Source of the DNA: a virus | IMG/VR virus record: IMGVR_UViG_3300030329_004167 | Location: 1-23,222 of that record | Strand: one strand, 5' to 3' | Length of the DNA: 23,222 bases | Shown: piece after piece, positions 10,206 to 16,581 of the stretch | How positions within the stretch are numbered: the first letter of the stretch is position 1 | Layout: the number at the start of each line of letters is the position of its first letter | Notes under the pieces: generated by a model | Databases searched by the model: none | The model's input: only the letters and a program-made list of their open reading frames with translations | What the model was told of the DNA's origin: nothing | Translations under genes and position numbers: made by a program

Positions 10206-12170
10206 CTAGTTTTGGAATCTGTTCAGGACTGCGTCCTGGCTCCCTGGGGCGACCTCTCTCGGTCCAGTTCCGGCAAGCGGTTGTCCGACAGCGTTCATCC
10301 CAGTGTCTTCTACCCCCTGAGTCTGGGGCTCTTCTGGCGGTTGTCCAGGGCTTGCTGCTCCCATTGCTGCTCCTTGGAGCTGAGAGAGCGGTCCAGTGAG
10401 GGCCCTCTTGTCCTGTCTCCAGACCCTGAACGCTTGATCCATAAAGCTCTGGATTGCACTTGGAGGAAGCATCCCTCCTTGAACGAGAGGGGCAAGGGTG
10501 GCTGCCACTCCCTGGATCGTCTGCAGCAGTCCCATGAAAGCTCGCTGCTCTTCGGCAGGGTCAGTTGGGATTGTTGATCCAGCCTGGACGTTTACGTCGA
10601 AGAAGCCCTGGATGTCCGAAGCGGTGAATGCAATGAACTGCTCTTCTCCCGCCTCTCCGTCAATCCTCAGGTACCTGACCTCGTCCCAGTACTGCCTGAT
10701 GATTGCGAGGATCTTCCTGCCGATCTTCGAGATAAGTCGCTCTGTCGCTTCAAGCCTCATCCCGACTCGACCCTTAGTTGCAGCAGAAGCGATAGCCACC
10801 TCAGTGGCCGTTGTTCCCTTTCTGCTGCCACCACCACGCTGGAAGGTGTCGATCCCAGAGATCTCGTACATCAGCCTGGCGAGGCCCTGGATAACCATCG
10901 GGGTAGTGCTGGGGGGAGGGGCTTCTGGGAGAAGCATCAGAGCATCTTGAATCCTGGCGACACTGGCTGGAATCTCAGCAACAGCCATGTCTTCGTCAGA
11001 CTCAAGCAGGCCAGACAACTGACCCGACTCAAGAGCCCCCGGAGCAGCAACGAACTTGCGCCTTGAAGACAGCCTGTGATGGCGAAGGATGTAAGCCCAC
11101 TCGTCATTGAGTCTGTCAGCAATGCCCTTGATGGAAGCGAGGTCAGAAACCTTGGTGCTGTAGAAGTCGTTAGGAACATCTACGAACCGAAGGACCTCGT
11201 ATGGATATCCCTTCATCTCGATGGGATCTTCAACGTGACGAAGGATTGAGTCCTGAGCGTCTCCGGTTCCAGGGTTGCGGATCAGCCACATGACATGGCG
11301 ACGCATGCCATCGCTCGTGTTACGCCAGTATCGGATCTCGTAGAGAGTGACGTACTCTGCTGGGATCTCTGGCTGGTTGAGGTTGTTCCCAGAACCCATC
11401 CCACTAAGCGAAGCTGGGACAGACTCGCTGAGCCATGAATCAGCCTCTACCCCATCAGGGACATCGAATCTCTCGTCGTTCCTGAGGTCGTCAAGCCTCA
11501 CCAGCATTCGCTCGCATACCCAGGGGCACTGACCGATCTCAGTGTAGCCAGGAGGAACGATCAGGTTCCAGGGGGCGATTCGGGTGAAAGACGGGTTGTC
11601 TGCTGGCTCATCGTCAAGAGCGAGACCATCGTCAGCAAGGAGGCTTCTCAACTGCCTCCTCTGGACAGAGCTAAGCTCATCCTCGTCTTGGTCCACCTTC
11701 TCTGGCCCGCTGTCGTAATCCTCCTCTGTGTAGAAGGACCCGCTTCCGTCGTAGCCAACCTTGCCAACGCCAATGCCAAACAGAAGGGTGTCCAAGACAA
11801 TGCTTCTGACTGTCTTGCTTCCGTCGATCTCTCGCCAGACGTAGTTGAGTGCAGTCTCTGCGATCCTCGCTGACTCCCGGTCTCCCGGCCTTCGAGGCTT
11901 CACATAGATGTACGGGTTAGCAGAGATAACGCCTGGGAGGATCGTGTTGGCATTGGAGAGCAGGAAGTTGAATTTGACTACGTCTCCGTCGTCGTATTCA
12001 AGACCATCAAACAGGGTTCCCCCGTCGTCTTCCGCTGAGTAGTCTTTTTGGATAGACCGCCACAGCGGGAGATGGTTTTCCTCCAGAACCTCCTCTGCCC
12101 CTCGGATCTTCTCAATCCAGTCAGAGATTTCTGCGTTGGAAAGCTGAATTGTGTTCTGTTCGTCTGGCAT
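10206..12170 (-). CDS. Portal protein
   Basis: This 654-residue acidic protein has the layout of large podovirus-type portals. A long helical N-terminus is followed by a wing region (PYIYVKPRR, WNLIVPPGYT, YVTLYEIRYWRN), a central clip/stem helix region (SDLASIKGIADRLNDEW near 350), and RGGGSRKGTTATEVAI with a long helix to about 520, typical of portal crowns. The C-terminal 90 residues are Gln/Pro/Gly-rich. The portal forms the ring at one capsid corner through which terminase pumps DNA. It lies on the minus strand between plus-strand terminase and scaffold genes, which is unusual. No good Shine-Dalgarno sequence precedes the ATG (CATCAAACG), so initiation may be weak or leaderless. It diverges from the scaffold gene across 73 bases. 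Confidence 0.88.
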   Translation of the reverse strand: MPDEQNTIQLSNAEISDWIEKIRGAEEVLEENHLPLWRSIQKDYSAEDDGGTLFDGLEYDDGDVVKFNFLLSNANTILPGVISANPYIYVKPRRPGDRESARIAETALNYVWREIDGSKTVRSIVLDTLLFGIGVGKVGYDGSGSFYTEEDYDSGPEKVDQDEDELSSVQRRQLRSLLADDGLALDDEPADNPSFTRIAPWNLIVPPGYTEIGQCPWVCERMLVRLDDLRNDERFDVPDGVEADSWLSESVPASLSGMGSGNNLNQPEIPAEYVTLYEIRYWRNTSDGMRRHVMWLIRNPGTGDAQDSILRHVEDPIEMKGYPYEVLRFVDVPNDFYSTKVSDLASIKGIADRLNDEWAYILRHHRLSSRRKFVAAPGALESGQLSGLLESDEDMAVAEIPASVARIQDALMLLPEAPPPSTTPMVIQGLARLMYEISGIDTFQRGGGSRKGTTATEVAIASAATKGRVGMRLEATERLISKIGRKILAIIRQYWDEVRYLRIDGEAGEEQFIAFTASDIQGFFDVNVQAGSTIPTDPAEEQRAFMGLLQTIQGVAATLAPLVQGGMLPPSAIQSFMDQAFRVWRQDKRALTGPLSQLQGAAMGAASPGQPPEEPQTQGVEDTGMNAVGQPLAGTGPREVAPGSQDAVLNRFQN

Positions 12171-13079: not shown

Positions 13080-14180
13080 ATGCCTGCTGTTACAGCGACT
13101 ATCCCGTTTGATCGGGTTTATTCGACCACTGCAGCCGCTGAGCGGTCCACGGTGGCGATGGAAATCGTCCAGTCCAACCCCCTTCTCTGGCACTTCTACC
13201 GCCAGGGTTCGGTGATCTACGAAGGCGGTACTGAGTGCCGAGTGCCTATCGTGCTCACCGAGTCGTCCAACGTGGGAGCCATTGGCACCTACGCCACCTT
13301 CGCCACCACCCCTGAGGATGGCCCGGACAAGGCTCGCTACCACACTTGGTACAAGAACCGAGCCTCGATGGTGATCGACAACACTGAGCTTGCCCAGAAC
13401 CGTGGCAAGTACCAGATTGTCAACCTCCTCAAGGCCAAGCAGGCCATTGCCAAGATCAGCATGGTCAATGACCTTGCTCGTCAGCTTTACGCTGATGGCG
13501 GTACTGAGTCCGCGACCTCGGCAGCTCCCCTGGAGCTGAACGGTCTGAACTCGATGATGCTGTTCGATGTCCCGGCGAACCAGACCCGGACCGTCGGTGG
13601 CATTGCTAAGGCTGGCGCTGCTGGTGGTTACGCTCGATGGGCGAACCGATACGGTCAGATCACCGCCTTCGGCACGGACGGTCTCGATGTTTGGGAGCAG
13701 GTCTACATGGACTGCTCGCAGCGCGGAACCCACCCCGACATCATCCTGACGGACCCCCAGGTTTACCGCTTCTTCAAGCGGCTGGTGGCTCCCAATCAGG
13801 AGGAGCGGGATGTTGCGATGTGGAACCAGGGATTCGAGAACCTGCTCTTCAACGGAACGCCGGTCGTTCCTGACGAGGAGCTTGCTACCACGGGTCGGAC
13901 CTACTTCCTGACCACCACTGGCAAGCGGCAGGTGACGGACTTCAACCTGAAGCCCGAGTACTTCGAGGTCCCCGGCAAGAACCCCCTGGTTCAGGGCAAG
14001 GGCACCGGAATCGGTCTCCAGCTCGCCATCCTGTCCTCTGATGACTTCCGCCAGACTGAGTTCCTCACCCCGCCCAACAGCGACGTGATCCTCAGCCACA
14101 CCTATTTCACCTCGATGCTTGTTGCTTCTTCGCTGGGTCGCCAGGGATGCACTAGCTTCGCTGGTGCGATCCAGTTTTAA
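13080..14180 (+). CDS. Major capsid protein
   Basis: The 366-residue protein follows the scaffold, has the size of a HK97-fold capsid subunit, and shows alternating helical and beta parts: a helix with IVQSNPLLWHF at 29-39, a strand region with CRVPIVLTE, a long helix at about 102-138 with an ELAQNRGKYQIVNLLKAKQ segment, and a beta-rich C-terminus ending SFAGAIQF. Position, length and codon use support the call, though no single motif proves the fold. Codons are strongly biased to C-ending forms, and all 19 arginines use CGN, none AGA/AGG, as expected for the most abundant phage protein. GGAGG lies about 11 bases before the ATG, with a further AGGA closer in. Confidence 0.88.
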   Translation: MPAVTATIPFDRVYSTTAAAERSTVAMEIVQSNPLLWHFYRQGSVIYEGGTECRVPIVLTESSNVGAIGTYATFATTPEDGPDKARYHTWYKNRASMVIDNTELAQNRGKYQIVNLLKAKQAIAKISMVNDLARQLYADGGTESATSAAPLELNGLNSMMLFDVPANQTRTVGGIAKAGAAGGYARWANRYGQITAFGTDGLDVWEQVYMDCSQRGTHPDIILTDPQVYRFFKRLVAPNQEERDVAMWNQGFENLLFNGTPVVPDEELATTGRTYFLTTTGKRQVTDFNLKPEYFEVPGKNPLVQGKGTGIGLQLAILSSDDFRQTEFLTPPNSDVILSHTYFTSMLVASSLGRQGCTSFAGAIQF

Positions 14181-14201: not shown

Positions 14202-14669
14202 ATGTCTACATTCATGTTTGGCGGTTCAGCTCTCGCGCTGGACATTGCGGGTCGCGCGCATGCTGCGCTTGAAGCCGGTGATGTTGTTATGCTTGACCCA
14301 GAGGCGTCGTCTGCCGCCGATGGCCTTACGACGCGAACGCCTGTTGTTAACGCTGGCGTTGGTCAGATTGCTCCTTATGGGGTGGTGCTTGGGTCTAGCG
14401 GGAAAAGCAGTTTTGCCGTTGGCGAGGACATTCTGATTCGGATTATCGGTGTCGTTAATGTCAAGATGAACCCCGCTAGCCCGTCTGTTGTTGGCGAGCT
14501 TGTTCAGATTGCTGGTGGTCAGACCTACCTCAATCCAGCCGGTGGAGCAGGGGCGTTTGTCGCCACCTCTGCAACGGTGCGTCCTTGCGGCATGGCCCAC
14601 ACCGTTTCCGCAGCAGGAACTGACAACAAGGCAGATGTTTACTTTAACGGCCTCACTACCTGGGGCTGA
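14202..14669 (+). CDS. Probable capsid decoration or head-stabilising protein
   Basis: The 155 residues are Gly/Ala/Val-rich and look like short beta strands (AGDVVMLDP, YGVVLGSS, DILIRIIGVVNVKM, VGELVQIAGG). This is the composition of small capsid-cementing proteins, including DUF2190-like ones, and it sits directly after the capsid gene. The four arginines all use CGN, like the capsid gene, suggesting high expression. GAGAGAGGA lies upstream of the ATG. A GC-rich hairpin follows 15 bases after the stop. The role is inferred from position and composition, and there is no motif that proves it. Confidence 0.65.
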   Translation: MSTFMFGGSALALDIAGRAHAALEAGDVVMLDPEASSAADGLTTRTPVVNAGVGQIAPYGVVLGSSGKSSFAVGEDILIRIIGVVNVKMNPASPSVVGELVQIAGGQTYLNPAGGAGAFVATSATVRPCGMAHTVSAAGTDNKADVYFNGLTTWG

Positions 14670-14671
14670 TA

Positions 14672-14754
14672 ACTAACGTGTGTTGACGGGGGGGCTTCGG
14701 CCCCCTCGTCATCGCAACTAGGAGATAGAAATGGCAGTTGCAACACACGTTAGT
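14672..14754 (+). promoter_or_regulatory. 14-nt perfect inverted repeat enclosing hairpin, RBS and start codon
   Basis: ACTAACGTGTGTTG (14672-14685) is the exact reverse complement of CAACACACGTTAGT (14741-14754). In the mRNA the two arms could close a structure that holds the UUCG hairpin, AGGAG (14720-14724) and the ATG (14731) in its loop. The right arm lies in codons 4-8 of the following gene. The left base G14685 is shared with the inner hairpin, so the two stems compete by one pair or stack. This is a strong candidate for control of translation or message stability. Confidence 0.7.
14685..14710. promoter_or_regulatory. GC-rich UUCG hairpin between two virion genes
   Basis: GACGGGGGGGC (14685-14695) pairs with GCCCCCTCGTC (14700-14710) around a TTCG tetraloop, an 11-bp stem with one G-T wobble. 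It should be extremely stable as RNA. No T run follows, so a classic intrinsic terminator is doubtful. RNA processing, partial attenuation or 3' protection of the upstream capsid messages are alternatives. Confidence 0.8.
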
Positions 14755-15198
14755 CGGGTGTCGAAGGACTACGCTCCTCACGGCTACTCGATCATGGAAA
14801 CCGTCTGCGCCACCGTGACAACGGCGGCGGCGACGGATCTTACCGACCCCGTCATCTCGCTGATGGTGGACGATGCCGACATCTGGATTGAGAAGGTGCA
14901 GCTTGTCGCCCTCTCCGCCCTCACTGCGGACGTCACCAATTACGTCGAAGTGTCGGTGAACTCGATGGACAGTGGTGCTGGGGTGGAGTCGGTTCACGCC
15001 AGCGCTACGAGCGAGCCCACCGGCAGCGGAGGGCTCGGCAATCTGGTGGAAGACACGTTCTACGATGTCCCCATCTCGGACGCCCACGTTCCCTCTGGTC
15101 GCGTCTTGCTGCTCGGCCTGATGAAGAGTGTTCCGGGTAATGCGGGCATCTCGGGCATCTCGGGCACCGTGATGGTTCGGTACCGACGCAAGGCTTAG
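14731..15198 (+). CDS. Probable abundant virion protein of unknown function
   Basis: The 155-residue protein is beta-rich (VISLMVDDADIWIEKVQLVAL, NYVEVSVNSMD, SGRVLLLGLM, GTVMVRYRRK) without known motifs. The five arginines all use CGN and most codons end in C, as in the capsid gene, so it is probably made in large amounts, for example as a capsid head-fiber, cement or neck protein. A GISGISG repeat sits near the end. AGGAG lies six bases before the ATG. The start region is inside a perfect inverted repeat, so its translation may be regulated. After it, 33 bases separate the adaptor gene. Confidence 0.68.
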   Translation: MAVATHVSRVSKDYAPHGYSIMETVCATVTTAAATDLTDPVISLMVDDADIWIEKVQLVALSALTADVTNYVEVSVNSMDSGAGVESVHASATSEPTGSGGLGNLVEDTFYDVPISDAHVPSGRVLLLGLMKSVPGNAGISGISGTVMVRYRRKA

Positions 15199-15231
15199 TC
15201 CTAAAACTCACTCGCTCTTTGGAGGTCGTTC

Positions 15232-16581
15232 GTGAACCTCTCGGAACTCAGAACGGCCCTCAAAGAGCGTCGTGAGGACTATTCATCTTCAGACGCTAAG
15301 CTTGATCGAAAGATCAACCAGGCCTACCTAGACATCTGCTCTAGGAGGAAGTGGGGCTGGCTTCGCAGGGAATACACTGCGAACACCTACGCGCCTCACA
15401 CAGTCACCGGCCATGGCCCTCCTGTTAACCCAGGTGACCCGGCGGCTACGCCCAACTTCGCAGCGACCAATGGCTCAAGGCAGATGGGCTTCATGGCTGG
15501 TCCTGGCACAGCGGATGGCCATCTTCCCCTGAACTCTTTGGGGAAGCGGATTCTAGTTGGCGGCTCTTTCTACAGAATTGTTCAGCTTAACAACGACAGC
15601 GCCAACGCAGACCTAGACAGACCGTACACCGGGTCTACCTTCCCGTTTGCCCCCGGACCGCCTGTTGAGCCAGACTACGGCTCTGCTCAGCTCGTATACA
15701 ACGAGATCGCCCTTCCAATCGGGGCTCAGTCTGTGGTCGAAGCGACGCTGTTTAGCGGGACCACCTCTTACCCGCTCAGCCTCGACTCTGTGCGACCAGC
15801 CTCTATGTCTGGGTCTGACAAGAACGTGGTTGCTCAACCGACTCGATTCTCGGTCGTTGAGAAGGCACCTATCAGAAGCCCCTTGTCTGCGATCTCTGGG
15901 CTCTCTGGGACGACGGGTGGCTCTCTTACCCCTGGGGCCACGTACACATACTGGTACAGCCACTACGACAAAATCACGGGGGCAGAGTCTGCTCTTAGCC
16001 CTTCTGCTTCGGTAACTCTAGCGCCGATTCAGAACGCTGTAGACCTCCCCACGATCACCGCGAGGAACGACTTCCGGGTTCGCATCTACCGAAGTAGGGC
16101 TGGGGGGAACATCCCGTACATCCTCGTGGACGAGGACCAGGCGAGTAAGGTTGCTTTCTCTGACGACATTGGTGACGAGTACCTCGGTCGGCGCGGCCCA
16201 GACAGCGCCTCTACGATGTTCATGACGCTGTACCCGTCGCCTAGCGCTACCTATCAGATCCACATTCTCTATCAAACAGAAGCAACCACGCTTGGAGCTG
16301 ACAACGACAGGCCGCTTTTTGACTCCACCTTCTCTAACGTCCTCCTTGATGGCGCTGAGATGCTCATGCTTACGTCTAACGACGAGCAGAGCCGAGCTGG
16401 GTCTGTCCAGGCTAGGTATGAAGCTGGCATTCAGAGGATGGTCATGCAGGACAGGATGGACTTGGAGAACCATGTCCTCATCGGTCGTAGTGGTCGTAGG
16501 GTTCGGGGTGGAAGAAACTGGTGGTATGGGTCTATCCCCGACTATGGGTCTGGCGGCATGGGCGGCTTTGGGGCTCCCTAG
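15232..16581 (+). CDS. Head-tail adaptor (gp4/gp16-like) with inserted beta module
   Basis: The 449-residue protein starts with MNLSELRTALKERREDYSSS and KINQAYLDICSRRKWGWLRR (1-47), the helical N-terminus seen in P22 gp4/HK97 gp6-type adaptors that attach to the portal. The C-terminal part has YQIHILYQTEATTLGADNDR (341-360), VLLDGAEMLML and a helix with YEAGIQRMV (396-404), like the end of that family. Between them lies a beta-sandwich-like module (229-322; TPGATYTYWYSHYD, ESALSPSASVTL, RVRIYRSRAGG). The protein ends in a Gly-rich tail. It starts with GTG, with GGAGG six bases upstream. It probably binds the portal and the following hub protein. Confidence 0.75.
   Translation: MNLSELRTALKERREDYSSSDAKLDRKINQAYLDICSRRKWGWLRREYTANTYAPHTVTGHGPPVNPGDPAATPNFAATNGSRQMGFMAGPGTADGHLPLNSLGKRILVGGSFYRIVQLNNDSANADLDRPYTGSTFPFAPGPPVEPDYGSAQLVYNEIALPIGAQSVVEATLFSGTTSYPLSLDSVRPASMSGSDKNVVAQPTRFSVVEKAPIRSPLSAISGLSGTTGGSLTPGATYTYWYSHYDKITGAESALSPSASVTLAPIQNAVDLPTITARNDFRVRIYRSRAGGNIPYILVDEDQASKVAFSDDIGDEYLGRRGPDSASTMFMTLYPSPSATYQIHILYQTEATTLGADNDRPLFDSTFSNVLLDGAEMLMLTSNDEQSRAGSVQARYEAGIQRMVMQDRMDLENHVLIGRSGRRVRGGRNWWYGSIPDYGSGGMGGFGAP

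Follow-up and report, generated by a model that had tools for sequence, protein, structure and literature searches.

The stretch of DNA analysed (the window) spans 23 kb, positions 1–23,222 of the IMG/VR virus record IMGVR_UViG_3300030329_004167. A DNA similarity search of a phage collection was empty, and no close relatives of the window were found among sequenced phages; in the protein search, the best matches of the major capsid protein (MCP) shared approximately 24% identity (phage Mx8 and one unannotated record). The RNA element described below lies between two genes of the head region, which is organized as follows.

13080..14180, + strand: major capsid (head) protein gene (phrog_9953 major head protein, E 6.9e-33)
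14202..14669, + strand: capsid cement/decoration gene, the 5' neighbour of the element (stop codon TGA, 14667–14669)
14731..15198, + strand: gene whose start is enclosed by the element; jelly-roll product, probable capsid decoration/cement protein (AF2 pLDDT 86)
15207..15276, + strand: second start-site RNA, a long hairpin that buries the SD (15221–15225) and the GTG start (15232) of the adaptor gene
15232..16581, + strand: SU10-type head-tail adaptor gene (PF24175, E 5.9e-11)

The terminase-like gene 7748 and the capsid gene 13080 lie on the plus strand and the portal gene (10206–12170; PF23899, SU10 portal) on the minus strand, an uncommon order for a head module.

Structural comparison of the gene 14202 product (AF2 model, pLDDT 86) revealed matches to the capsid cement/decoration chains of phages Pam3, XM1, T1, TW1, and E217, with VIA-align Z values of 9–12. 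For the gene 14731 product, the best PDB matches of the predicted model are the trimeric cement proteins of the Helicobacter phages KHP30 and KHP40, with a Z of 8.3 that is scarcely higher than that of unrelated jelly rolls in the same fold list, so that the cement assignment is a lead rather than proof. The original prediction regarded the message of gene 14731 as that of the capsid. This part does not stand, with the MCP encoded at 13080–14180; judged from the model, gene 14731 probably encodes a capsid decoration/cement protein, a jelly roll nearest to trimeric phage cement proteins. Residues 1–20 of this protein are modelled with low confidence, yet they carry most of its invariant residues.

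At the start of gene 14731, the original prediction had described a perfect 14-nt inverted repeat (14672–14685 / 14741–14754), the left arm of which starts 3 nt past the upstream stop codon and the right arm of which pairs exactly although it lies within coding sequence, the two arms surrounding a UUCG hairpin, the AGGAG site (14720–14724), and the ATG (14731). All of these features were confirmed on the sequence. The UUCG stem likewise has the proposed length of 11 bp, one of its pairs being G-U. No other perfect inverted repeat of at least 14 nt with a spacer of up to 100 occurs in the whole window, and none occurred in 40 block shuffles. At minimum energy, the predicted fold takes the form of a three-way junction between a clamp (P1), the UUCG hairpin (P2), and a short RBS hairpin (P3), with the following parts.

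14672..14684, + strand: left (5') strand of the P1 clamp, noncoding
14675–14682, + strand: invariant core of the P1 left strand, AACGUGUG
14685..14710 (14685–14695 / 14700–14710), + strand: P2, 11-bp UUCG hairpin with strong covariation in relatives
14714..14741 (14714–14719 / 14736–14741), + strand: P3, RBS hairpin, from fold prediction and relatives
14742..14754, + strand: right (3') strand of P1, in codons 4–8 of gene 14731
14744–14751, + strand: core of the P1 right strand, CACACGUU, with frozen synonymous sites

The outer helix comprises 13 bp rather than 14, because G14685 joins the UUCG stem and C14741 joins the third helix, P3, a part of the predicted fold that was absent from the original prediction. 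P1–P2 and P3–P1 are contiguous with 0 unpaired bases, while P2 and P3 are linked by 3 bases. The P3 loop carries AGGAG and the AUG (14731–14733), and in the window the SD and the AUG are mostly located in this loop (unpaired 0.84 and 0.82). Among the relatives, the SD is mostly paired in one clade and the AUG in another, and many copies are largely unpaired at both.

Folding of 14660–14770 gave −52.5 kcal/mol, compared with −33.0 ± 3.6 kcal/mol for shuffled sequences (z = −5.4), and none of 200 shuffles equalled the native value. In a scan of 1157 segments of 100 nt, the element was one of the three most structured by z. It shares this rank with the segments 14941–15040 and 15201–15300 of the same region, all three lying within 14660–15300. 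The most extreme of all, 14941–15040 (−54.0 kcal/mol, z −5.4), is inside the coding sequence of gene 14731, the body of which is highly diverged. Consistent with the earlier view that the structure is not a plain terminator, no T run follows P2 and no terminator-like match was detected there on this strand. No sigma-70-type promoter was found within the element; phage-specific promoters lie outside such a scan. A search against Rfam 15 returned no match to the element at the gathering score (best sub-threshold match, BASRCII26, 23.7 bits against 218 required), and no description of this element was found in the literature.

Relatives of the window, all uncultured viruses of microbes, were gathered from IMG/VR by protein scans and DNA-pattern scans. 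This yielded 33 distinct copies of the element (window counted), related and partly redundant, every one of which is located between a 14202-type cement gene and a cement-like 14731-type gene; a covariance model applied to 67 sources identified no further convincing site. In the alignment, 98.8% of the P2 cells are standard pairs, and two-sided changes occur in 6 of the 11 P2 pairs. When all helices were taken together, the paired cells, the cells with two-sided changes, and the covariation score exceeded 500 of 500 shuffles, and all slid controls were far lower. Counted by pairs rather than cells, two-sided changes in the whole element are unremarkable (reached by 186 of 500 shuffles); the case for covariation is therefore based on the cell counts, the covariation score, and P2. 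Strict column covariation of P3 was not supported in the alignment. Its helix is re-formed by clade in other registers (GCAAC/GUUGC, ACAGC/GCUGU, GCUAG/CUAGC, and GACUAG/CUAGUC), and the native left/right pairings fold better than swapped ones except in 33 of 2000 trials, which is moderate evidence. A test of the 14-nt arms for compensatory changes in related phages had been proposed; the pairing of the P1 core is almost never broken, but no compensatory double change occurs, and since the core AACGUGUG/CACACGUU lacks two-sided changes, other evidence is needed for P1, which is predicted weakly or poorly in two copies (L002 and L021). In 33 of 33 copies, the stop codon of the upstream gene lies 2–6 nt 5' of the ACGTGTG clamp motif, despite upstream proteins that are just 30–60% identical to that of the window.

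Other evidence for P1 comes from sequence conservation and codon usage. The left strand is noncoding and nearly invariant across copies, and the right strand spans the codons NCA CAC GTT, whose third positions are fixed in 32/33, 32/33, and 31/33 copies, against background frequencies of the same choices in the same genes of 0.19, 0.80, and 0.48. Nearby R, V, P, and G codons are variable (1.3–1.8 bits). Four homologues of the gene have no leader, namely tandem paralogues in two loci (L048:7175–7700, approximate, and L007:348–845) and the distant relatives L057 and L060. The CACACGTT core is present in 0/4 of them versus 29/33 leader-bearing genes (Fisher p = 0.001, an optimistic value because the sequences are related). 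The original prediction had regarded a protein kept without the pairing as evidence against itself, and all four fulfil this in part, keeping the protein without the element; beside the pairing, however, they also lack the left arm and the UUCG hairpin. It seems that the decoration genes are duplicated and exchanged as cassettes whose N- and C-terminal ends are conserved.

The conservation of the P1 core as sequence, beyond pairing, whereas P2 drifts with compensation, would also be expected of a protein-binding operator, in which a phage protein (perhaps the decoration protein) or a host protein reads P1 or the junction and represses excess 14731. MS2 coat protein and T4 gp32 and gp43 exert autoregulation through operators in the phage message, and the present element resembles these in having a hairpin at or near the start site, but it differs in its three-way junction, with no binding protein known. 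The invariance of P1 also follows from pairing to protein-constrained codons, 5 of the 8 core positions being amino-acid-fixed, and no RNA-binding fold was seen, the body of the 14731 product being a widely variable jelly roll; we therefore consider an operator unlikely. The same helices may instead guard the upstream 3' end or be cut by RNase III, splitting the cement and decoration messages, as the UUCG-capped hairpin stands a few nt past the stop codon in all copies and the contiguous P1 and P2 make a near-continuous helix of >20 bp. Protection or processing of the message had been suggested in the original prediction, and no sign of either was seen here. Cleavage in P1 would hit codons of gene 14731, P3 and the frozen synonymous sites indicate a start site rather than an RNA end, and neither a terminator nor a sigma-70-type promoter match accompanies the helix, so that such a processing role appears somewhat less likely still.

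A second structure covers the start of the adaptor gene. Comparison of 24 distinct sequences revealed two-sided changes in 15 of the 27 pairs of the 15207–15276 hairpin, a number reached by 0 of 500 shuffles. The hairpin is present in all relatives in which the 15232-type start was located, and L055 and L057 form it from very different sequence. Opening of the 15232 start was calculated to cost 26.8 kcal/mol, the highest among 18 starts tested, and the hairpin would fit a lock on a low-copy adaptor protein.

Comparison of the regions flanking the first element revealed a sharp contrast in conservation, with a median identity of 29% for the upstream protein body, 81% (nucleotide) for the element, and 24% for the downstream protein body. 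Upstream and downstream relationships are nearly uncorrelated (Mantel r = 0.08), and swaps were found on either side (upstream/element/downstream identities of 99/98/34% for L002/L008 and 29/89/80% for L017/L052). A conserved element between diverged bodies, together with the uncorrelated sides and the swaps, makes recombination at or near the element likely, as judged from these alignments. On the strength of the same profile, the element might be retained mainly as a joint for homologous exchange of the flanking cassettes, with the RNA fold secondary. This reading, however, does not predict the matching arms, the P2 covariation, the re-formed P3, or codon freezing confined to the paired stretch; recombination leaves the covariation and the frozen codons unexplained and may be an added consequence, and we regard it as improbable that exchange is the main role. 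A broader proposal, that the two start-site RNAs are portable expression handles that flank highly variable decoration cassettes, fix the translation of each irrespective of its body, and serve as homology joints for their exchange between phages, is possible but doubtful. Far less probable than any of these is a recently spread segment of no function, in which common ancestry and chance account for the pairing: the copies are indeed related and the P1 core shows no double changes, but the arms stayed complementary while the flanking proteins diverged to 24–29%, and no shuffle matched the covariation of P2 or of the second hairpin. Comparative evidence thus argues that the element at the 14731 start is a functional RNA structure, not chance, and this structure is well supported.

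Several further candidates were rejected. Two matches of the pattern scan of genome_contigs (L113 and L114), neither with the flanking anatomy, were judged to be chance. An apparent leader before a T7-like capsid gene (L036) proved to be an assembly chimera, and an apparent right arm without a left arm (L106) was the reciprocal chimera. The L036/L106 junction is a 21-mer, TAGGAGATTATTATGGCTGTT, common to T7-like loci such as L116; its presence in two unrelated capsid loci calls for caution among users of these IMG/VR contigs. In L116 (approximately 920–1005) and 26 similar loci, another noncoding core, TGCCCCATGCGTGGGATAACTC, hardly varies in a leader that is otherwise different. This stretch sits 5' of T7-like major capsid genes in another virus group, and no Rfam match was found in L116 or L118.

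The anatomy at the 14731 start suggests a cis-acting RNA translation gate, in which the ribosome on gene 14202 opens the start of gene 14731 while the second hairpin keeps the adaptor low; we give this reading about an even chance. In the free message, P1 would join the first nucleotides past the 14202 stop codon to codons 4–8 of gene 14731, and the three-way junction of P1, P2, and P3 would hinder 30S loading even though the P3 loop holds the SD and the AUG. On terminating at the TGA (14667–14669), a ribosome would cover the left strand of P1 and melt the clamp, leaving P2 and the weak P3, and gene 14731 would then be translated in step with gene 14202, so that the two decoration proteins would be made together. 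The stronger hairpin over the adaptor start would keep that low-copy protein scarce. Formation of the structure in the cell, its opening by ribosomes, the direction of control, and a stoichiometric purpose are all what we infer from these features.

By geometry and calculation, the arrangement is that of coupling by RNA unfolding, as the start region is enclosed and an upstream ribosome would reach and open the structure. Clearing the 30S footprint of gene 14731 was calculated to cost 21.1 kcal/mol in the window, falling to 10.3 kcal/mol once the P1 left strand is covered, near the opening cost of the MCP start (9.6 kcal/mol). Across the 33 copies, the mean cost falls from 17.1 to 11.7 kcal/mol; in L040, covering P1 gives no fall. 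The original proposal that the element may set the ratio between the products of genes 14202 and 14731 therefore remains the best fit to the anatomy, namely the 2–6 nt stop spacing and the drop in opening cost. Any block would perhaps be incomplete, since neither the SD nor the AUG is paired to a large extent in many copies, and compaction of the genome could account in part for the tight stop spacing. Against the gate stand the distant relatives and paralogues that do without the element, as well as one screen in which structure just 3' of the upstream stop codon correlated with lower coupling (PMC12548453).

The proposed gate shares features with several known systems. In coupling by RNA unfolding (PMC12548453), as in the present case, a downstream start is structured and the upstream stop codon lies a few nt 5' of its 5' strand; unlike plain unfolding, the element combines a clamp, a stable UUCG hairpin, and an RBS hairpin, with a stop–AUG gap of 61 nt. 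The structures of T4 genes 25 and 38 lie between the SD and the AUG and raise initiation (PMC3014915). They resemble the element in being conserved within a clade and missing from distant relatives, whereas the element encloses both the SD and the AUG. Start-site RNA structures that limit initiation occur in T4 soc, e, 49, and I-TevI, where the SD and/or the AUG itself is helical and gene e escapes through late promoters inside the structure (PMC3014915). The message of the window is similarly predicted to have its start region folded to limit initiation; in contrast to the soc type, its SD and AUG are predicted to lie mostly in a loop of the three-way junction, with one or the other mostly paired in some clades of relatives, and a scan for sigma-70-type promoters detected none within the structure.

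T4 soc is itself a capsid decoration gene. The proteins of a phage particle have to be made in fixed proportions, frequently from a single message, and the RNA means of achieving this are, to our knowledge, little known except in RNA phages and a handful of T4 genes. The present analysis provides a clade-wide RNA element that is not in Rfam, together with a base-pair model, natural controls in the form of leaderless paralogues, and another covarying lock on the next gene, which make the control of stoichiometry by RNA gating directly testable. The position of the element at a mosaic joint suggests a tie between gene exchange and expression control in these viruses.
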